Positions 26,791 through 37,797 of a stretch of DNA of 64,000 nucleotides are shown piece after piece. The position numbers and the translations under genes are program-made. The notes under the pieces were generated by a model. It was not told where the DNA came from and did no database searches. It saw only the letters and a program-made list of their open reading frames with translations. Source of the DNA: Ignavibacteriota bacterium (GTDB lineage: Bacteria > Bacteroidota > Ignavibacteria > UBA10030 > SZUA-254); the NCBI GenBank assembly GCA_025358305.1, contig JANYJZ010000041.1, positions 1-64,000 of the forward strand. The letters run 5' to 3'. Positions within the stretch are counted from its first letter, which is position 1. Every line of letters begins with the position of its first letter.

Positions 26791-29700
26791 CTACTTCGTG
26801 AGCATCATCTTCTTGATGTCGGTGAATGTCCCGGCGGTCAAGCGATAGAAATACATGCCACTGGGCAACCTGCTCGCGTCGAACTCCGCAGACTTGAAAC
26901 CGGCCTCTTCGAACCCGTCAAGAACCGTCATCACCTGTCGTCCAAGTATGTCGTACACCTTCAAGGTGACATAGACGTCCGTGGGAAGTGCGTACTCGAC
27001 TCTCGTGGTCGGGTTGAACGGGTTCGGGAAGTTCTGTGCGAGGGCGAACGTGAGCGGTTTGGTGTGTGCTTCCACGGGCCTCTCGCTGGCGAAGGCATCG
27101 CCGCCGCCGCAGTTTGTGGCAGTGGTGAACGTAAATAACGTGCTGACGCCGAAGATGTCCGGACACGATGCATATTTCGACGCGACGGTCCAGCCGTACG
27201 CCGTGCTCGCCAGGAGCGTATTGACGACGAGGGAATTGGTCGAACTGTAGTAGATCGTTCCTCGCAGAGTGATCTGATACTGTGTCGCGTTCGGCACTGC
27301 TGTCCACTGCAGCGTGACCGGAGCACAGACAAGATTGGCCCCGTCCGGAGGGAACGTGAGCGTCGGCGCCCCGAGGGCACTCACCGTCGTGAAAGCGGAA
27401 GCCGCGGATTCATTGCAGCCGTAATAGTTGGCGGCAGAAACTTTCCAGAGGTAGGCCGTCCCGGCGTTGAGCACCGGGGACATCGACGTTTGACTGGTCG
27501 AGTAGAGAATCCAATTGGCGCCTCCGTCACTCGACAGGCGGACGTCGTAGAGGACCGTGCCCGAGACTGCGGTCCATGACAGGGGGGCCGTTTTGCAGAC
27601 AGCGTTATCATTGTTGACCGGGGTTAGGAGCGTCGGTGCGGTCGCGGGAGGCTGGCCGGACGTGAAATTGTAGATCGTGAATGAGTAGGTGGTGGACCAC
27701 GGACCCTCCCCAAATGAATTCACGCCCGCCGCTCTCCACCAGTACTGCGTGTTCGTCCCGCTGAAACTCAGTAGATTCGAACTCTGCGTGACTTCCGCGA
27801 CAATACAGGCAAAGTTCACATCATTGGCAACCTGAATGTGGTAGCTGCATGCGCCGGTCGTCGACGCACCCACGACGAGGGTCGTCGGCGTCGTCACACC
27901 CTGCCCGTTTCCGGGGACCGCGAGCGACACCTGGGGCGGGGGCGCGCAGGCGTAGGTCGTGAAACTGTAGAGGGCCGATGTCGCAGATCCCACGCAATTA
28001 TTCGCCGTGAGCTTCCAGGCGTACGGCTGGTTGCAGACGACGGGGAGGTTCTCCGAATAGACCACCGACGAAAAATGCTTGGGCCCGTAACCTGAAAGCC
28101 AGCTCGCTCCTCCATTGGTCGAGACCCACAGGTCAAGATTGCTCGTGTTGTTCGAGAGGCTCCAATTGAGATTCACATACCCCGTGCACCAGTTCACATT
28201 GGTCGCGGTGTTTGCAGGGCCCGACAGAATCGGAGTGCTGGGAGGGGAGGCGGTGGTGAAGCTCCTGCAGGATTGTCCCGTCCCGAAGAAATTGCCTGCG
28301 GTCACGCACCATGCGTACGTCAAGTTTGCGGCGCAGACCGGTGCCACGAACGGATCGGAGGAAGCCGTACCGAGAAGATTGTCATTTTGATCGACGATGG
28401 TACCATTGGCGTGTGTCACGGTCATATTCAGCGTTATGGCGTTGTTCATCGCTGTCCACTGCAGCGGGGACCCTGACGAGCAACAGCTGTAGTTCAAATA
28501 ATTATTCGTCGGCCAGATGGGTGCCGGCGCCGGGATGGCGCCCAGATATACGCCTTGCGTCGTCGAAGCGTAGATGGATTTCGCAGCGACGTCTACGCTG
28601 AGGCTGTTCTCCGGAGGCGGTATGACGGACTCCGTGCCCGGCAAGACGGTCCACGTCGAGCCGCCGTTCGAGGATTTATAGATCGCGGTAAGCACCGGAT
28701 AACCGCCAGGCGACGATGCAGAGACGAAGAGGTGCAACCCGTCGCTTTGCGTTGGATCCAGAACGACGGACGTTACGCCGGTCACTCCACTTCGCAGGAC
28801 CGGACTCGAGCCGTAGTTGGATGACTGATACAGGTTCCCGAGGTTGTCGCAGAAATACACATATTGAGACGCAGTCGAGTTCACGGCGACACATTTGACG
28901 TTATAATTCGCAGCGACGCTGGTAAAACTGACGCCGCCATTGGTCGAAGACAATAATCCGATGGCATTGCCGCAGCCGGCGTAGACCCGAGCGAGCGTTC
29001 CTCCGGAATTATCGATCGCTATCGAATTGACCGGAACGGACGGGCTCCCACCGAGCAATATAGGGGACCATGATGAGCCGTTGTCCGTACTACGGAAGTA
29101 ATTATACTGTGTCGCACCGCCGACGCCGGCGAACGCGATCGCCGATCCCGAGGCCTGATCGTGGGCAAGACAGAGGATATTCGTCCCATGCGAGAGCGTC
29201 AGCGACCAGGTTGTACCGCCGTCATTGGTCACGTACGCCTGCCCGGAGCTTGCGCCGGGAAGATCGAGCGACCCGCCGATATACGCGTTGTTGACGTTGT
29301 TGGAATCGACGGCCGCAGCATGCCCTTTAAAGAGATCGAGAGAGAAGACCCGCGACCAGGCACCGCCGGCATACTTGAACCCTCCCGTAGAGTCGAGCGT
29401 GGCCGCGAGGGCGGTGCCATTGGAAGCACCGACAGTGGCGACATTGGAGAGCGATGATCCGGTGCTCTTGAGAGTCCAGGCAGACCAGGCGCCGCTGGTG
29501 CGAGTACGGGAATAGACGGAATTACATGTCGCAATGTAGACGGTGATGCTGCCGGCCGGATCGGTCTGGTCGAACCCGATCTGATGGACGCATCGCCCGT
29601 CGGGACCCAATCCTGCACTTGCGTCGGACCAGCTCGACCCGTTGTTTTCGCTCATCCAAATCCCGTTATCGGTTCCAGCGTACATGAGGTTCGGATCAAT

Positions 29701-30603
29701 GGTCGAGATCTTGAGTGCCCGGACCTGCTTGGCATTGGTGAAGGGTGTGGTCGGTGCGTTCCAGTTATCCCCGTTATCCCCCGAATTGAAGAGCTTCACG
29801 GAGATGGTCGGGGCAGTATAGACCTCTTCCGCCGCCCATAAGACCCCGGTGCTCGTGTTAAAGGCTATTGCGGTGACATTGCGTTCATTCGGAGGAATAT
29901 TGTTTGACGTAAATTTAAACAGCCACGTCGTGCCGCCGTTCGTCGAACGCCACACGCCTTTCCTGAACGCGCTGCCTTCGGAGTTTACATCGGGTGCCGA
30001 CGAGTTCCCAAGGATGTTCGTTCGCGATCCGCAGACCCAGATGTATGACAGCGTGGGATGGAAGAAGATGTCGTTGATATTCGTATTTGTCGATATCCCG
30101 GTGGACTTGTCCCAGGTATCGCCGTTGTTCGAGCTGCGCCAGAGGGCCTGGTTGGAACCGGAGGTCCACTGGGATCCAATGAGCGCCACGCCGTTGTTCG
30201 TTGAAGAGGAGGATTGAGGTGCGATCCCAACGCGGTAGGGGGTTGCCGGTCCCGCCACGATCGTTGTCCAGGAACTGCCCCCGTTCGTCGACTTATAAAT
30301 GTTCGTCCCGTTCACCATCAACGCCATCTGGGGATTGTCCGCCTTGCACGTGATTGCGATCGGCGTGGCAATTGACGGATTCGCCCTGTTCCACGAGCCC
30401 CCCTGGTTTTCAGAATGCATCGCCTGAAACCTGTCCGCTGCGAATATTGTCTGGGACGCCCCTTTGCCGACAACGAGATCGATGACCTTGTTCTGCGGAA
30501 GGGGTCCATTAAGATTCAGAAAGCTTTGCGAGCGAGCTGTGACAGTCATCGAGAGGATCAGAAGACAGATAGCAAACACGGTGGTAGGCATGTACGTTCT
30601 CAT
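26791..30603 (-). CDS. Secreted beta-propeller (BNR-type) protein with T9SS sorting domain
   Basis: A ~1270-residue exported protein. After the signal peptide (MRTYMPTTVFAICLLILSMT) the first ~700 residues carry many BNR/Asp-box-like repeats of the S.NGGSSW or STNGGTTW type, as in sortilin/YCF48-like propellers. Then come three or four fibronectin/Ig-like modules (~690-1170) with W-A-V..A..Y..Q patterns, and a C-terminal T9SS type A domain (QNFPNPFNPTTRVEYALP, GRQVMTVLDG, KKMMLTK). It is likely a cell-surface or released binding protein or glycan-active protein; no catalytic set was recognised. The ATG at 30603 is chosen because the signal peptide starts there (GGGAA just upstream), not at the longer open frame. 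A palindrome sits in its promoter region. Confidence 0.85.
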   Translation of the reverse strand: MRTYMPTTVFAICLLILSMTVTARSQSFLNLNGPLPQNKVIDLVVGKGASQTIFAADRFQAMHSENQGGSWNRANPSIATPIAITCKADNPQMALMVNGTNIYKSTNGGSSWTTIVAGPATPYRVGIAPQSSSSTNNGVALIGSQWTSGSNQALWRSSNNGDTWDKSTGISTNTNINDIFFHPTLSYIWVCGSRTNILGNSSAPDVNSEGSAFRKGVWRSTNGGTTWLFKFTSNNIPPNERNVTAIAFNTSTGVLWAAEEVYTAPTISVKLFNSGDNGDNWNAPTTPFTNAKQVRALKISTIDPNLMYAGTDNGIWMSENNGSSWSDASAGLGPDGRCVHQIGFDQTDPAGSITVYIATCNSVYSRTRTSGAWSAWTLKSTGSSLSNVATVGASNGTALAATLDSTGGFKYAGGAWSRVFSLDLFKGHAAAVDSNNVNNAYIGGSLDLPGASSGQAYVTNDGGTTWSLTLSHGTNILCLAHDQASGSAIAFAGVGGATQYNYFRSTDNGSSWSPILLGGSPSVPVNSIAIDNSGGTLARVYAGCGNAIGLLSSTNGGVSFTSVAANYNVKCVAVNSTASQYVYFCDNLGNLYQSSNYGSSPVLRSGVTGVTSVVLDPTQSDGLHLFVSASSPGGYPVLTAIYKSSNGGSTWTVLPGTESVIPPPENSLSVDVAAKSIYASTTQGVYLGAIPAPAPIWPTNNYLNYSCCSSGSPLQWTAMNNAITLNMTVTHANGTIVDQNDNLLGTASSDPFVAPVCAANLTYAWCVTAGNFFGTGQSCRSFTTASPPSTPILSGPANTATNVNWCTGYVNLNWSLSNNTSNLDLWVSTNGGASWLSGYGPKHFSSVVYSENLPVVCNQPYAWKLTANNCVGSATSALYSFTTYACAPPPQVSLAVPGNGQGVTTPTTLVVGASTTGACSYHIQVANDVNFACIVAEVTQSSNLLSFSGTNTQYWWRAAGVNSFGEGPWSTTYSFTIYNFTSGQPPATAPTLLTPVNNDNAVCKTAPLSWTAVSGTVLYDVRLSSDGGANWILYSTSQTSMSPVLNAGTAYLWKVSAANYYGCNESAASAFTTVSALGAPTLTFPPDGANLVCAPVTLQWTAVPNATQYQITLRGTIYYSSTNSLVVNTLLASTAYGWTVASKYASCPDIFGVSTLFTFTTATNCGGGDAFASERPVEAHTKPLTFALAQNFPNPFNPTTRVEYALPTDVYVTLKVYDILGRQVMTVLDGFEEAGFKSAEFDASRLPSGMYFYRLTAGTFTDIKKMMLTK

Positions 30604-30741
30604 GGCGGTTCCCTCGCTGGTAATGGTTGATGGTAGAGGAGGTCGTGGCTCGTCGAAGAAGTGCTCCCATTCGATCGAGGTGATACCTTGCAATGAGTTA
30701 GGGAATTGACGCGTATTGTTCAATACCTAGTTTCCCTCCTC

Positions 30742-30759
30742 ATGGGCAGAACTACCCAT
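30742..30759. promoter_or_regulatory. Palindromic candidate operator upstream of the propeller T9SS gene
   Basis: ATGGGCA-N4-TACCCAT (18 bp, one mismatch between arms) lies 139 nt before the start codon. The TACCCAT arm fits the NarL-family heptamer TACYYMT. A matching element lies at 35228-35245, on the other side of the adjacent two-component genes. The rest of the 259-bp gap holds an untranslated leader and no other recognised signal. Confidence 0.5.
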
Positions 30760-30862
30760 CGAAGTCGTATCGGGAGTATCCGGGGCGTGGAGGAGTCGCG
30801 GGCCCCGGTTCGCAGAGGCCGCTCTGTAGAGTTGGCGAGGTGGGGGGGGAGAGGCGGGAGTA

Positions 30863-31534
30863 CTATTTCTCGATCGAGGTGATCCCTTCCCTGATGGCGA
30901 ACTTCGTCAGCTCCGCAATGCTGTGGATGTCAAGCTTTTCCATAATGTGCGCACGGTGCTTATCGATCGTTTTGGCGCTGACGTTGAGTCGAAAGGCGAT
31001 CTCCTTGCTTGTCTTTCCCTCGGCGATGAGCTGCAACACCTCGCGTTCCTTCGGGGTCAAGAGTGCGAATGCGACGAAGTTCGGGATTTCCGAAGCGACA
31101 AAGACATCTTTCTGGAAGTCGATGCCGAGCTCGGGGCTGATGTAGAAGCGATTGGCGGCGACGACGGAGATGGCCTTTGCGAGTTCCTCCGATGCGCAGT
31201 CCTTGCGCAGGTATCCGCGTGCGCCGGCACGGAGCATCTTTGCAACGAAGTGCTTGTCCAGATACATCGACAGAACGACAACCCGTACATCGGGAATCTC
31301 GTCGGTGATCTGCTGCGTCGCTTCGATGCCATTGAGGTTCGGCATCGTGATGTCCATGACGACCACGTCGGGAAGGTACTTCTTTGCGAACCGGACCGTA
31401 CTCACGCCGTCAGCGGTCTCGCCGACGATCTCGATCCCCTTGTCGCGTTCCAGAAGGGCCTTCAAGCCTTCCCGGACGATTTGATGGTCATCGGCGAGAA
31501 GGACGCGGATTCGTTTTATATGGGTCAGGTTCAT
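30863..31534 (-). CDS. NarL/LuxR-family response regulator
   Basis: A 223-residue two-domain regulator. The receiver domain has the acidic pair (LADDHQ), the phospho-acceptor Asp61 (VVVMDITMPN), the switch Ser (VLSMY) and Lys (YLRKD). The C-terminal LuxR-type HTH (about 160-215) reads LTPKEREVLQLIAEGKTSKEIA then SAKTIDKHRAHIMEKL. It overlaps the kinase gene by 4 nt (ATGA) and is certainly its partner. Targets are inferred to include the two flanking T9SS genes because both have palindromes with NarL-like half sites. Confidence 0.93.
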   Translation of the reverse strand: MNLTHIKRIRVLLADDHQIVREGLKALLERDKGIEIVGETADGVSTVRFAKKYLPDVVVMDITMPNLNGIEATQQITDEIPDVRVVVLSMYLDKHFVAKMLRAGARGYLRKDCASEELAKAISVVAANRFYISPELGIDFQKDVFVASEIPNFVAFALLTPKEREVLQLIAEGKTSKEIAFRLNVSAKTIDKHRAHIMEKLDIHSIAELTKFAIREGITSIEK

Positions 31535-34500
31535 GTTCGGTCTCCGATCGGGAATTGCACCTCGATGCGTGCTCCGCGCTCCGGATGAGAGTGGATGGTG
31601 AGTTTGCCGCCGAAATGACGCAATCGTTCGCGCAAGCTGAACAGTCCGTAGCCCCGGTGTTCCGCATCGCGCAAGTCAATCCTCTCCGGATCGAATCCCA
31701 CGCCGTCATCGGCGATCTCGATCGTGAGCGTGCCGGCCTCCGATCGTATGCTGAGCTCGACGCTGTGAGCGTGGGAGTGTTTGATGATGTTCATGAAGAG
31801 CTCCCGGACGGCGTGGTAGAGGAACGTGCGGTCATCCTCACCCTTCGGCCTGGGCCCGTGATCGGACTCGACGAGGATGAGGAGCTCGTTGCGCTCCTTG
31901 AACTGATCGATGAGCCATTCGAGCGCGTCGTCAAATGCCAATTCTCGTATGACAGGCGGGCTCAATTCGAACGTGAGGGAGCGCGTGCTCCGGATGGTGT
32001 CGTCCAATATTTTGACAATGTCCCGGATGTCGGACGGCGAATGATCGTGTTGAAAGGCATCGAGCTTGATTTTGCACAAGGCAAGCGCATGGCCGACCGA
32101 GTCATGCAGGTAGGTGGCGAAACGGGTTCGTTCGCGCTCCTCGGTGATCGAGATGTCGGAGGCGAGCGTTCGGAGTTGCGTCTGATACATCAAGAGTTGT
32201 TCTTGCACCTTCCTCCTCTCGGTGATGTCTCGGACGGTCAGGACGCCGATGCTCCGGGTGTCCGAGGGGATATGTTTGGAGATGACCTCCGTGACGAGCG
32301 CCATCGCGTCGCTCCGCGTGCAGATCAGCTCGGATGGTTCCTCAAATTCCTGTTCGATGATCCCCCGAAGCTGATCGTGTGACTCGGCCGAAAATAATTC
32401 GTGGACCGGCCTTCCGACCAGCTGAGCCGGGGAGTATCCGATGAGACGCGCGAGACTGGAATTGATGTCAATAATGATCCCTTGATCATGAAGAATGATC
32501 CCTTCAAAGGTCGCTTCTGTGAGCCGTCGAAATTTCGCCTCGCTTCGGCGTAAGGCTGCCGTGTGCCGCCGGCGTCTCACGATCGCGCTCGCCGTCATGA
32601 GGAGGACGGCAAGGGATAACAGTGCGGTCGGTATGAAGAACGCCGGCCGAAGGTAGAAGAGCTGAGGGATCGTCAACTCTCGCGAGCTTCTTCTGCCGAT
32701 GAACCCGAAGCCATCCTTCGCCTCCACCTCGAATGTGTGCGTCCCCGCACTGAGACCGGCGTACGCCTGTTCCCGCAGGAGGCTCCACGCCGTCCACGCT
32801 CCGCGATCGATCCGGTAGCGCGAGGAGATGGTCTGCGCGGCGGGAACGCCCCAGAACGACAACACCCGCCACCGCACGAGGGTCTCATCATCCTCGGTGA
32901 AGTGCTGGTCGATGACGACGATCGGAGGGGGCGAATCGGCATCATGAAGATCAAGCATCACCAGTCCCTGGCCGATCGTACCGGCGTAGAGCTTCTCGTG
33001 CGATATGACGACCGGCCAGAGAGCTCTTCCCGGGAACCCGTCGGCAGGGCTGAACCCGGCCCCGACGCCGTCGTTGAGGAGCCCCAGTCCATCGAGTGTG
33101 CCGGACCACAACCTCCCGGTGGAATCAAAACAGAGGCTCTCGACGCGGTTACTGATGAGCCCGTCGAGCGTGGAACAATACTGCGTCCGGCCGTCATCCT
33201 CAAGATACCCGATCCCAGTCCCTTCGTCGGCGAACCAGACTCGGTTCTTTTTGTCGAGCGCGAGCGCAAAGACATTCCCGCTTCGCAGGCCCTTCTCCGA
33301 AGTCCAGTGCTTCCATACGCCCTCCATCGTGCTCAAGTCTCTCGCCACGGGCTTCCAGCGATCGAGGCCCCTCTTCGTTGCGAACCAGTACGCAGAATCC
33401 GCGCTTTCAAGGAACGCGTAGACCCGACCGGAAGAGAGCCCGTCTTCTGTTCCCACGTGTCGAAACGTGCCGTCGTAGACGAAGGCTCCAGGCTGGGGAA
33501 GGGTGGAAGGGTTGCGCATCCCGAGGAACCATAGCCTTCCGCTGCGATCCTTCTGGATCCGGTGAACATTGATATCCAGCCTTTCAGAAGTGACGCGGAA
33601 GTACTTCCATGACCGGCCGTCCCACCGGTAGGCGCCCGTGAACGCGCCGCCGCTGGAGATCCATACATTGCCGTCCCGGTCCTCAGCGATCGCGGTCGCC
33701 CCGAGGATCGAAACACCGTCAATCTGGGTACAAAACGTAACCAGTGAATCTCCGTTGAGGATCGTGATGCCTCCGGCGGTCGCGAGCCAGAGCCGGCCAT
33801 CATGGGCAATCATGATCTCATTGACCCAATCCCTGAGATCCGGCGGCGAGTGAGTGAACTGCGTCCAGCGGGGAAAGGGCTGGTGATAGAGGTCGAGCCC
33901 GTCACTTGAGGCGATCCAAAGGTCGCCGTTCCGGCGAAACTTCACGCCGATGATGCGCACGAACCGGGATTGGATCCCCGTGAGTACCGTCCAGAAATCG
34001 TTGTGGCGGCGGACGACATTTCCGGTGAGGTTCACTGCGATGATATCTCCGTCATCGCTCATATCCATCGCGGTGAGATAGTAAAAGAACGGGTCGGGGA
34101 TGTACCGAGGCTCCGCGTCACCCTTCCACTCCCAGCGCCCCGGGAGTGCCTGGATACTCAGGAATCCGTCCCGGCCCGTGTTCTCCGCGAGTTCTCTGAG
34201 TTCGCTACCACCTCTGGGGCTACGGAAGGAGAGCCGCCATCTGCCTGAATCGAGTTTGTAGAAACACTGAGCGCACCACAGCCAGATGTTGCCGCTCGAC
34301 GTACGGAGAATTCGCGTATATCGATCAAACGGCACGTCGATGTTCGCCGGAAAGGGCATCACCTTGTCACCGACGAGGAGGTAGAGGGCATTGGGGCAGA
34401 GAGCAATAATGGAATCCTTGCCGCACGAAACCGCCGAAAATACCTGCTCGATCGGCAGTCGATCGAAGTGGTTCGTTGAGCCGTGGTAGAGGCGTCCATT

Positions 34501-34857
34501 CGCGATGACGATCATGCCTCCCGCGAGGTCCGGTGCAAGCTGAAAAGCGCCCGCCCCGGGCAGACCTTGTGTGCTGTCGATCGGATGCCACATGAATCCG
34601 TCAAACCAAGCGACGCCATTCGGTGTCGCAACCCAGGGAACACCCAAGGTGTTCTCGACGATTTGTGTGACATGGTTTGAGGGAAGGCCCGATTCGACGG
34701 TGAATCGTGCCCAACGCCCGGGCTCGTCCGAGAATGGAACTGTCCAGGAGATTGCCGGCGAGCTCAGGAGGAGAACAGTGAAGGCCCATCGACATATGGA
34801 TCCTCCTCCAGAACGTAAACTGCCGCCGGTGAGGCGTGCATTACGAGGAGAGTTCAC
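31531..34857 (-). CDS. Beta-propeller sensor histidine kinase (PAS, HisKA_3, HATPase)
   Basis: An ~1108-residue membrane sensor. After the N-terminal signal/anchor comes a large periplasmic seven-bladed-type propeller built of Reg_prop repeats (for example LPSNHVTQIVE, DGLSSGRVYAF, KGLRSGNVFALALD), a Y_Y_Y domain, one membrane helix (PAFFIPTALLSLAVLLM), a PAS domain (FRRLTEATFEGIILHDQG), a NarX/DesK-type dimerisation domain with the phospho-acceptor His in YLHDSVGHALA, and a HATPase (N box VRELFMNIIKHSHAH, DDGVGFD, GYGLFSLRERL). The architecture is close to the sensors that Bacteroidota use for glycans and other extracellular ligands, but with a separate response regulator. The GTG at 34857 is selected for the GAAGGTG site 5 nt upstream and the signal sequence after it. 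Confidence 0.9.
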   Translation of the reverse strand: MNSPRNARLTGGSLRSGGGSICRWAFTVLLLSSPAISWTVPFSDEPGRWARFTVESGLPSNHVTQIVENTLGVPWVATPNGVAWFDGFMWHPIDSTQGLPGAGAFQLAPDLAGGMIVIANGRLYHGSTNHFDRLPIEQVFSAVSCGKDSIIALCPNALYLLVGDKVMPFPANIDVPFDRYTRILRTSSGNIWLWCAQCFYKLDSGRWRLSFRSPRGGSELRELAENTGRDGFLSIQALPGRWEWKGDAEPRYIPDPFFYYLTAMDMSDDGDIIAVNLTGNVVRRHNDFWTVLTGIQSRFVRIIGVKFRRNGDLWIASSDGLDLYHQPFPRWTQFTHSPPDLRDWVNEIMIAHDGRLWLATAGGITILNGDSLVTFCTQIDGVSILGATAIAEDRDGNVWISSGGAFTGAYRWDGRSWKYFRVTSERLDINVHRIQKDRSGRLWFLGMRNPSTLPQPGAFVYDGTFRHVGTEDGLSSGRVYAFLESADSAYWFATKRGLDRWKPVARDLSTMEGVWKHWTSEKGLRSGNVFALALDKKNRVWFADEGTGIGYLEDDGRTQYCSTLDGLISNRVESLCFDSTGRLWSGTLDGLGLLNDGVGAGFSPADGFPGRALWPVVISHEKLYAGTIGQGLVMLDLHDADSPPPIVVIDQHFTEDDETLVRWRVLSFWGVPAAQTISSRYRIDRGAWTAWSLLREQAYAGLSAGTHTFEVEAKDGFGFIGRRSSRELTIPQLFYLRPAFFIPTALLSLAVLLMTASAIVRRRRHTAALRRSEAKFRRLTEATFEGIILHDQGIIIDINSSLARLIGYSPAQLVGRPVHELFSAESHDQLRGIIEQEFEEPSELICTRSDAMALVTEVISKHIPSDTRSIGVLTVRDITERRKVQEQLLMYQTQLRTLASDISITEERERTRFATYLHDSVGHALALCKIKLDAFQHDHSPSDIRDIVKILDDTIRSTRSLTFELSPPVIRELAFDDALEWLIDQFKERNELLILVESDHGPRPKGEDDRTFLYHAVRELFMNIIKHSHAHSVELSIRSEAGTLTIEIADDGVGFDPERIDLRDAEHRGYGLFSLRERLRHFGGKLTIHSHPERGARIEVQFPIGDRT

Positions 34858-34933
34858 TGGAACACCTTCGCGCACGTGTATCGAAAGGGGAGAGATCCAA
34901 CAGCATGGGTCACGATCGAACGCCGATCGCGCG

Positions 34934-34953
34934 TCGTGTCCGAGGAGACACGA
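34934..34953. other. Small hairpin in the leader of the sensor kinase gene
   Basis: TCGTGTC-CGAGGA-GACACGA is a perfect 7-bp inverted repeat about 80 nt upstream of the kinase GTG. It could be an operator or a leader-RNA stem. No T-run follows, so it is not a terminator. Confidence 0.35.
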
Positions 34954-35227
34954 TGCGTGCTTGGGAGAATCCTTCTGATGAGCGAGTGTCGGCGGTTGTA
35001 CCAAGGGGCGGTCATTGCACGCATGGTACTTCTTTTTTTCTCCACGTGCAACACCGAAGAGTGCGAACGAGAGTGCGCAGCGTTGCTTGCCGGGCGGCAC
35101 TAGCCTGACGATCCAGGGTTCACGGCAACTTGGAGGCTCGAGGACCGGCGTGCGCCCTCAAATAATGTTCAACCCAATCTCTCGCCGGCGCTCAAAAATC
35201 GCTGTTGTCTCGGCCGCAAGCGCCCGA

Positions 35228-35245
35228 GTGGGTAAATATACCCAT
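35228..35245. promoter_or_regulatory. Palindromic candidate operator upstream of the FG-GAP T9SS gene
   Basis: GTGGGTA-AATA-TACCCAT contains a perfect 6-bp inverted repeat and resembles 30742-30759. It lies 72 nt before the plus-strand start codon and directly next to a possible -35 element. The TACCCAT arm fits the NarL-type heptamer TACYYMT, so the neighbouring NarL-family regulator is the obvious candidate protein. Confidence 0.55.
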
Positions 35246-35316
35246 TGCATCTCTTTGCCGGGATCCGTACTATTCAATACATCTCTCCAATTTGACGACC
35301 CGACGAAAGGAGTGTC

Positions 35317-37797
35317 ATGATGTCATCTCCAGCCCGCACGTCACGCGCGCGCGTCGTCCTCTTCTCCCTTATCTTAATCGGGTCACTGACGACCAGCCTT
35401 CCGGCGCAACGATCGTTGCCTCCGTATCAGCCCTGGACCTCGCTCTTCAGGCAGTTCAAACAGACCCCCGGCTCCAAGATCACGGCTCCTCCGCATCTCT
35501 ACACGACGAACACGCATGCCGACTCGACCACGTTTACGCTCCTTCCTACGAGTTTGCCCGGAGTCTTCGTCGGTGACGCGGTCTTCATCGATTACGATAA
35601 TGACGGCGATCTCGACGTGCTCGTCTCCGGTTTTGACGGCACCGAGCCGATCACGAGGATCTACCGCAACGACGGCGGCGTCTTCACCGATATCGAGGCG
35701 GGGCTCCCGGGGATCATCTCGGAACACGGGGTTGCGTGGGGAGACTTTGACAACGACGGAGATTACGACCTCGCGGTGAGCGGTATACTCGATACGCTCG
35801 GGACGATGCCGATCACGAAGATCTTCCGGAACGACAACGGTACGTTCGTCGATATCCATGCTCCCCTCATTAATCTCCATGGCGGAGTGATCAGCTGGGT
35901 CGATTACGACATCGACGGCAGGCTCGATCTTCTCATCGCCGGCTCGCCCGATAACGGCAGTACATTTGTCACGAAGCTCTACCATAATACCGATAGTTCC
36001 TTCACCGACACGGGGTTTGAGTTCCCCGGCGTGTGGGGCGGGGCGGTCGATTGGGGAGACTATGACAACGACGGAGATCCCGATCTTCTCTTGTTCGGCT
36101 ACGGCACCCGGGGCACGACCGCGGCGCTCTACCGGAACGACGCCTCGACCTTCACCGAGGTCCCGATCCCCGCGGCCCCTGTGACGTACGCCGCCGCTTC
36201 CTGGGGAGACTATGACAACGACGGCAAACTCGATTTCGTCATCTCGGGCGACCCCTCGGGCCCGGAAAATAACTACGCCGCGCTTTACCATTGCACGGGT
36301 CCGGGCTCGTTCACCTTCGTCCCCACGACGCTCCCGTCGATCAACGCGGGGTCCGTCGCCTGGGGCGACTACGATAATGACGGCGATCTCGATCTTGCGA
36401 TCAACGGCTGGCTCAACGACTCGGTCAATGTGACGAAGATCTTCCGCAACGACGGCGGTGGGATCTTCACGGACATCGACGCGGACCTCCCCGGTCTTTG
36501 GTGGGGCTCGGTCGCCTGGGGGGACGTCGATAACGACGGAAGGCTCGATCTTCTCATCAGCGGGGGGATGGGACCGCAAGAGTACATGGTCCGCTATAGC
36601 GGCGGGCCGCCCCACGGACCGATCGAACCGATGACGCTCATTTATCATAACAACACCCCTGTCGCGAACGTGCGCCCGGCCGCTCCGACCGTGGCCGGGA
36701 CCGCCGTATCCGGCCCCGATGTGACGCTCTCCTGGGGTGGAGGGAGCGACGACAAGACCCCGCCGAGCGCCTTGACGTACAACTTGCGCGTCGGCACGGC
36801 GCCGGGACTCTCCGATGTCGTCGCTTCTTCCTCGAACGAAGCGAGCGGCTACCGCAGGGTACCGAAGACCGGCAACATGAACCACCGCGGATCGGTCTCG
36901 CTGAAGAATCTCCCCAATGGCACCTACTATTGGGGCGTCCAGTCGGTCGATAATGCCTACGCGGGCTCGGCCTTCCATAGCGTACAGCAGTTCATCGTCG
37001 GCCCGAGTACCGCGTCCGCCTGGCATCTCGTCTCGGTCCCCGGGACGTACCTTGACCGGCGTCCGAGTGTGCTCTATCCGTCGGCGCTCGCGAACGCATA
37101 CGGTTACGAGAGTGGTTCAGGTTACTACGCCGCCGACACGCTCGAAAATGGCGCCGGGTATTGGTTGCAGTTCCCGCCGGCATCGGATCCCGCGATCTCG
37201 TCGGTGGGCGGAGCGCTGCCATCTGTGGCCGTCACCGTGAAGAAGGGATGGAACCTCATCGGATCTGTCAGCTCGGCGGTGCCGACCGTCTCGGTGACGA
37301 GCGATCCGCCCGGCCTGACGACGACGAACTTCTTCGGGTATGACGGCGCGTATTCGGTCGCGCCGAGCATCGAACCGGGCCGCGCGTACTGGGTCAAGGT
37401 CTCGGACGACGGAACGCTCGAACTCTCGTCGAGCGACGCTGCATCACATGCCGGGGCGAGGATCCAGATCGTCCCAACATCCGAGATGCCCCCCGGGGCA
37501 CCGGTTGTTGTCGCGACGCCTCGTGAGATACCCACTCGGTTTGCCCTCGGGCAGAATTACCCGAACCCGTTCAATCCCTCGACGTCGATCGCGTACGACC
37601 TGCCGGTCCGCGAACACGTCACGTTAATGGTCGTGGACCTTCTCGGACGTGAGGTTGCGACGATCGTCGATGGACCCGAGGACGCAGGAACGCACACCGT
37701 CCGATTCGACGCATCCCATCTCGCCTCCGGGGTCTATCTGTACCGGATCAGCGCGGGGAAATTTATGGATGTTCGGAAGATGTTGCTGCTCAGGTAA
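35317..37797 (+). CDS. FG-GAP/VCBS-repeat secreted protein with T9SS sorting domain
   Basis: An 826-residue exported protein with a signal peptide (cleavage near LPAQ, residue ~31). Seven FG-GAP/VCBS repeats follow (~85-440), each with a Ca-binding DYDNDGDLD-like loop and the ring [12 protein letters not shown]. Then come an Ig/FN3-like module (~450-560), a paired [10 protein letters not shown] module (~565-715) also present in the T9SS protein at 43825-46920, and a T9SS type A domain ([35 protein letters not shown]). Such proteins form integrin-like Ca-dependent propellers and usually bind surfaces or polymers. Start: tandem ATG codons preceded by AAAGGAG. It is divergent from the sensor kinase. 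Confidence 0.88.

Follow-up and report, generated by a model that had tools for sequence, protein, structure and literature searches.

Two matching palindromes in the bacterial DNA analysed here (a stretch of 64 kb, hereafter the window) are best read as a genuine pair of operators, confined to this locus, for the response regulator whose gene lies between them; the regulator would bind by the -33 promoter element and activate the two adjoining genes for cargo of the type IX secretion system (T9SS). We assign this reading a probability of roughly 0.74. It draws on the exactness of the sites, their rarity, their conservation beside an orthologous regulator and a promoter spacing common to related loci. 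The original prediction, made from the window alone, is as a whole partly supported; the position of the operators relative to the promoters, an additional box at site 1 and a wider family of private operators go beyond it. The features concerned are the following:

26791..30603, minus strand: target 1, a sortilin/BNR-like T9SS cargo gene with a Por_Secre_tail (domain search)
30692..30700, minus strand: putative -7 region of site 1, TAACTCATT, 20 nt past the TTG (a match to ATTG-N20-TA)
30721..30738, minus strand: second box of site 1 (O2), GAGGGAAACTAGGTATTG, whose last bases are the putative -33 TTG; kept in genome G006 at an equal distance from O1
30742..30759, minus strand: site 1, candidate operator O1, ATGGGCAGAACTACCCAT on the forward strand and ATGGGTAGTTCTGCCCAT when read towards the BNR gene
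30863..31534, minus strand: NarL/FixJ response regulator (receiver and GerE domains, helix SAKTIDKHR)
31531..35100, minus strand: open reading frame of the sensor histidine kinase (Reg_prop propellers, PAS, HisKA_3, HATPase_c)
35228..35245, plus strand: site 2, candidate operator O1, GTGGGTAAATATACCCAT
35245..35275, plus strand: putative promoter of site 2, with the -33 TTG (35245-35247), a 20-nt spacer and TACTATTC (35268-35275), fitting the CC-N0..3-ATTG-N20-TA of sister loci
35317..37797, plus strand: target 2, a T9SS cargo gene with FG-GAP repeats and a Por_Secre_tail (domain search)

That the palindromes flank a kinase and regulator operon and adjoin two T9SS cargo genes, as originally predicted, is borne out by the gene order and by the C-terminal Por_Secre_tail sorting domain in both cargo proteins (2.4e-9 and 1.3e-8). 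The BNR/sortilin-like gene, regulator and kinase all lie on the minus strand, in this order, and site 1 falls between the stop of the regulator and the BNR/sortilin-like gene, while site 2 lies beyond the kinase, upstream of the divergent FG-GAP gene on the plus strand. The regulator combines a Response_reg domain (1.4e-27) with a following GerE domain (8.2e-20), which places it in the NarL/FixJ family, and the kinase carries the Reg_prop repeats, HisKA_3 and HATPase_c domains of a propeller sensor kinase; its true start is probably downstream of the start of its open reading frame (31531..35100, minus strand).

Sites 1 and 2 are the only exact matches to RTGGGYA-N4-TRCCCAY in the 64-kb window, which confirms the claim that no other such elements occur there. 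Among 100 dinucleotide-preserving shuffles of the window the mean was 0.02 matches, and none (0/100) reached two. The arms of site 1 fail to pair at one position, where C stands opposite A. In the bacterium's own genome (3.21 Mb) the motif is matched exactly three times, as opposed to zero times for a reversed control. The third match (G000:C25:158956; L069:4450-4482) is the core of a perfect 11-bp hairpin, GCGGGTGGGCA-TGCG-TGCCCACCCGC, which is terminator-like, lies outside long open frames and mimics the operator pattern; it looks unrelated to the window operators. With up to two mismatches allowed, the genome holds 46 matches and the control likewise 46, so that no wider regulon is visible and the set is local; a wider regulon in this genome was rejected on these counts. 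Our inspection of the two-mismatch places covered 13 outside the window (L001, L004-L015), with 31 others beyond it; 12 of the 13 overlap open frames of at least 120 codons and the remaining one is a hairpin. It is highly improbable that the palindromes are chance inverted repeats or RNA hairpins such as terminators and attenuators. Such an origin would agree with the control-level abundance of the relaxed pattern and with the hairpin at the third exact match, but not with the result of the shuffles, with the lack (by eye) of a T-run after either site, or with the retention of the site in G006 together with a conserved extension of 21 nt, described below. A search for repeats in both intergenic regions found nothing.

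The strict form RTGGGTA-N4-TACCCAY was searched in 98 genomes of the order, where it occurs three times: at window site 2, at a coding site in G003 beside apparent type I restriction genes (by eye), and at one place in G006; its reversed control has four matches in the same genomes. G006 also encodes the closest regulator among the 98 genomes, an orthologue with 65% identity in which the core of the DNA-contacting helix, SAKTIDKHR, is identical to that of the window regulator. Relatives found by a search of genome contigs showed, among the matches listed, at most 53% identity and were left out of further comparison. The strict match in G006 is situated about 2.2 kb from the regulator orthologue and precedes two genes that run towards this orthologue. 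In an ungapped comparison with site 1, the operator agrees at 12/18 positions (the free N4 counted) and the 21 nt after the palindrome at 16/21, while the flanks, with 8/25 upstream and 6/29 further downstream, are not conserved. This pattern delimits a conserved block of about 40 bp, composed of the operator, 3 nt, GAGGGAAACTA, two differing bases and TAT. Moreover, the G006 promoter has TATCATTC as far from its operator as TAACTCATT is at site 1. The two G006 targets are a short T9SS cargo and a protein of 447 residues that has no clear match in Pfam; since they differ from those in the window, the operator appears to follow the regulator rather than the target. Conservation in relatives, which the original prediction had named as a check on both sites, is seen for the window operator beside one orthologue in one other genome.

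The Bacteroidota housekeeping promoter is described, in the sections of the literature that we cite, as TTTG near -33 and TAnnTTTG at -7 (PMC7366714, PMC6847099). Compared with this sigmaA-type promoter, both window sites present ATTG-N20-TA, and their -7 tails, TACTATTC and TAACTCATT, fit in part only, the match consisting of TA plus a T-rich tail and nothing more. Site 2 reads GTGGGTAAATATACCCATTG-N20-TACTATTC and ends in CCC-ATTG-N20-TA, the palindrome reaching as far as the -33 TTG. At site 1 the order is operator, GAGGAGGGAAACTAGGTATTG, N20, TAACTCATT; here ATTG-N20-TA is placed behind the second conserved box, which takes the -33 position, and 18 nt separate the palindrome from the TTG downstream of it. 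The distance from operator to promoter thus differs between the two sites. At site 2 the ATTG-N20-TA elements point, by eye, to the FG-GAP gene only. The suggestion that site 2 could also serve the promoter of the kinase operon is not supported and was rejected, as no ATTG-N20-TA is discernible by eye on the minus strand there and the G006 kinase has no strict match upstream of it, the only one in that genome lying elsewhere.

A comparable layout recurs at sister loci. We compared 41 loci with family regulators (the window, 20 and a further 20), drawn from the top-ranking regulator matches apart from three with a lower rank; some of the sister loci were read by pattern only. Behind many sister regulators stands an element with CC-N0..3-ATTG at its end and TA 20 nt further on; among these regulators are the paralogues on C6 and C41, two of the three sister kinase-regulator pairs in the same genome as the window (C39, C6, C41). 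With a spacer of 20 and a short T-rich tail required after the TA, the pattern is found in the sense direction at 16/41 loci and in antisense at none, and every other spacer from 12 to 29 at no more than two of the 41. Spacers of 19-21 (CC-N0..3-ATTG-N19..21-TA) after the regulator give 20/41 loci in sense, 2 in antisense, 3 reversed and 1 reversed antisense, and block shuffles of the 41 loci gave a mean of 3.56 and a maximum of 10. A stricter pattern with a GG arm is present at 13/41 loci, where the remainder of that DNA would predict 0.51. These counts are not independent tests, because the promoter grammar and operator types B and D (see below) were first recognised by eye in the 41 loci. 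Nearer to independence are the count of type B in whole genomes, with a control of 0, and a test on 40 further, more distant loci (the next-best regulator matches outside the set), where the stricter pattern occurs in sense at 4/40, one of which looks coding, and not at all in antisense or reversed. A generic dyad search near the sister loci was too noisy to give a usable result. In one sister locus, operator-and-promoter-like elements are found both at the start of the regulator open frame and just after the regulator gene (L157:9532-9571 and L157:10378-10414), and this pairing could reflect autoregulation.

This arrangement would suit an activator in contact with the polymerase at the -33 region, and activation is what we infer. 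The palindromes could instead be the regulator's operators in a repressor or dual regulator, where the covered -33 element blocks the polymerase; site 2, whose operator touches the -33 TTG, would suit this, and NarL itself is described, in the part of PMC4549865 used here, as repressing from sites near the start. We nevertheless consider repression unlikely, in view of the palindrome of site 1, 18 nt away from the TTG, and of the 20-nt spacing, which stays constant between sister loci whose operators vary and fits activator contact. In the activator reading that we prefer, the periplasmic propeller kinase would phosphorylate the NarL/FixJ regulator, a dimer of which would bind ATGGGTA-N4-TACCCAT: at site 2 on an operator directly abutting the -33 TTG of the FG-GAP gene promoter, and at site 1 on an operator roughly two turns of the helix more upstream, where a second and weaker box fills the -33 position. 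As a class II activator, the bound regulator would bring RNA polymerase to both promoters, so that a single sensor would turn on two surface proteins and hardly anything else.

Each with its own sequence, elements resembling operators are also found at the matching spot beside sister kinase-regulator pairs, and their comparison reveals three clear operator types, A, B and D. Type A comprises the window and G006, whose regulators form a clade (100/99). Type B, AATCATGGWWTCCNNGATTG with at most one mismatch, occurs at 15 places in the 98 genomes (control 0), eight of which are beside a family regulator; three more lie within 1.5 kb of a T9SS tail, and four have neither kind of neighbour; two of these four look like one orthologous coding site. 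In the window's own genome, type B is found only beside that genome's own paralogue on C39. Type B regulators do not form one clade, their branches being poorly resolved. Type D, AGGGTNAANACCCTATTG, is present at all three loci (in three genomes) of another regulator clade (100/99). In L051, the sister of clade A, the -33 position is occupied by AGGGAAACTCCCCATTG, a sequence similar to box O2 of site 1. These differences bear on whether another DNA-binding protein uses the window palindromes, with the adjacent two-component pair as a bystander. Palindromes of this kind do suit many dimeric regulators, but the strict site is nearly absent from the 98 genomes except beside the regulator and its G006 orthologue, and the operator type varies between sister regulators, which makes a bystander quite unlikely. 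The same two observations uphold the predicted small, local regulon of a regulator and two cargo genes. As separate observations, inverted repeats of the CCCCACGATTTATCGTGGGG type recur in intergenic units 700 nt after the regulator of L159, and CGCAAGCTNAAGCTTGCG is repeated three times, about 49 nt apart, at L050:14726-14841, with similar palindromes in other loci of the same genome.

Among solved NarL/FixJ structures, VraR (5hev), NarL (1a04), DesR (4ldz) and DevR/DosR (3c3w) are closest to the window regulator, sharing a receiver and a GerE/LuxR helix-turn-helix and matching over nearly the whole chain, while the target genes and the operator sequence differ. We take the helix residues of DosR to differ from those of the window regulator as well. 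The original prediction had likened the arm TACCCAT to a NarL heptamer (TACYYMT in its own consensus), and the string does resemble the heptamer of the engineered NarL 7-2-7 site TACCCCTAAAGGGGTA, in which TAC stands at the outer ends and the arms are 2 bp apart (PMC4549865, in the part cited). The argument fails, however, on geometry: the window arms stand in the opposite order, with TAC inside, around a 4-bp spacer, and membership among NarL 7-2-7 operators is ruled out. The spacing GGG-N8-CCC is instead that of DosR (DevR), for which the cited part of PMC6448022 gives the consensus box GGGACTTNNGNCCCT. Like DosR, the window has an inverted GGG...CCC with eight bases between (GGG-TANNNNTA-CCC), realised as GGG-TAAATATA-CCC at site 2 and GGG-CAGAACTA-CCC at site 1; the bases between differ, with inner TA...TA in the window and ACT... 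in DosR. A functional parallel is offered by PorXY-SigP and PorA of Porphyromonas gingivalis, in which, as far as the cited portion of PMC7712824 describes, two-component control is tied to type IX secretion and the kinase receives a signal from a surface protein that bears a CTD. That system controls the genes of the secretion machine via an ECF sigma factor, whereas the NarL-type regulator of the window appears to control two adjacent cargo genes.

Free-standing proteins of about 90-110 residues that resemble a T9SS sorting tail and have no obvious signal peptide are encoded no more than about 1 kb behind the regulator gene at 17/41 sister loci (L053, L054, L055, L056, L058, L059, L060, L061, L063, L151, L152, L154, L155, L158, L160, L161 and L162), several of them directly behind the operator; the window has none. 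The two that were tested match FlgD_ig or Por_Secre_tail weakly.

With a common promoter layout and differing operator sequences, each sister pair would address its own targets. Tentatively, these may be parallel insulated circuits, each composed of a propeller kinase, a NarL-type regulator, a private -33 operator and T9SS surface proteins, in which operator and regulator helix change together and cross-talk is avoided, and which may report on or adjust the protein coat of the cell surface. We found no description of such circuits in the open-licence PMC literature; the kind of system is known, and its organisation around T9SS cargo seems to be undescribed in that searchable literature. To our knowledge, the targets of the propeller sensor kinase class are mostly unknown, and the window provides a concrete candidate regulon for this class at the level of single bases. 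Several paralogous pairs per genome, each with its own operator at a common promoter position, would form a natural series in which to follow how the DNA specificity of NarL-type regulators changes.
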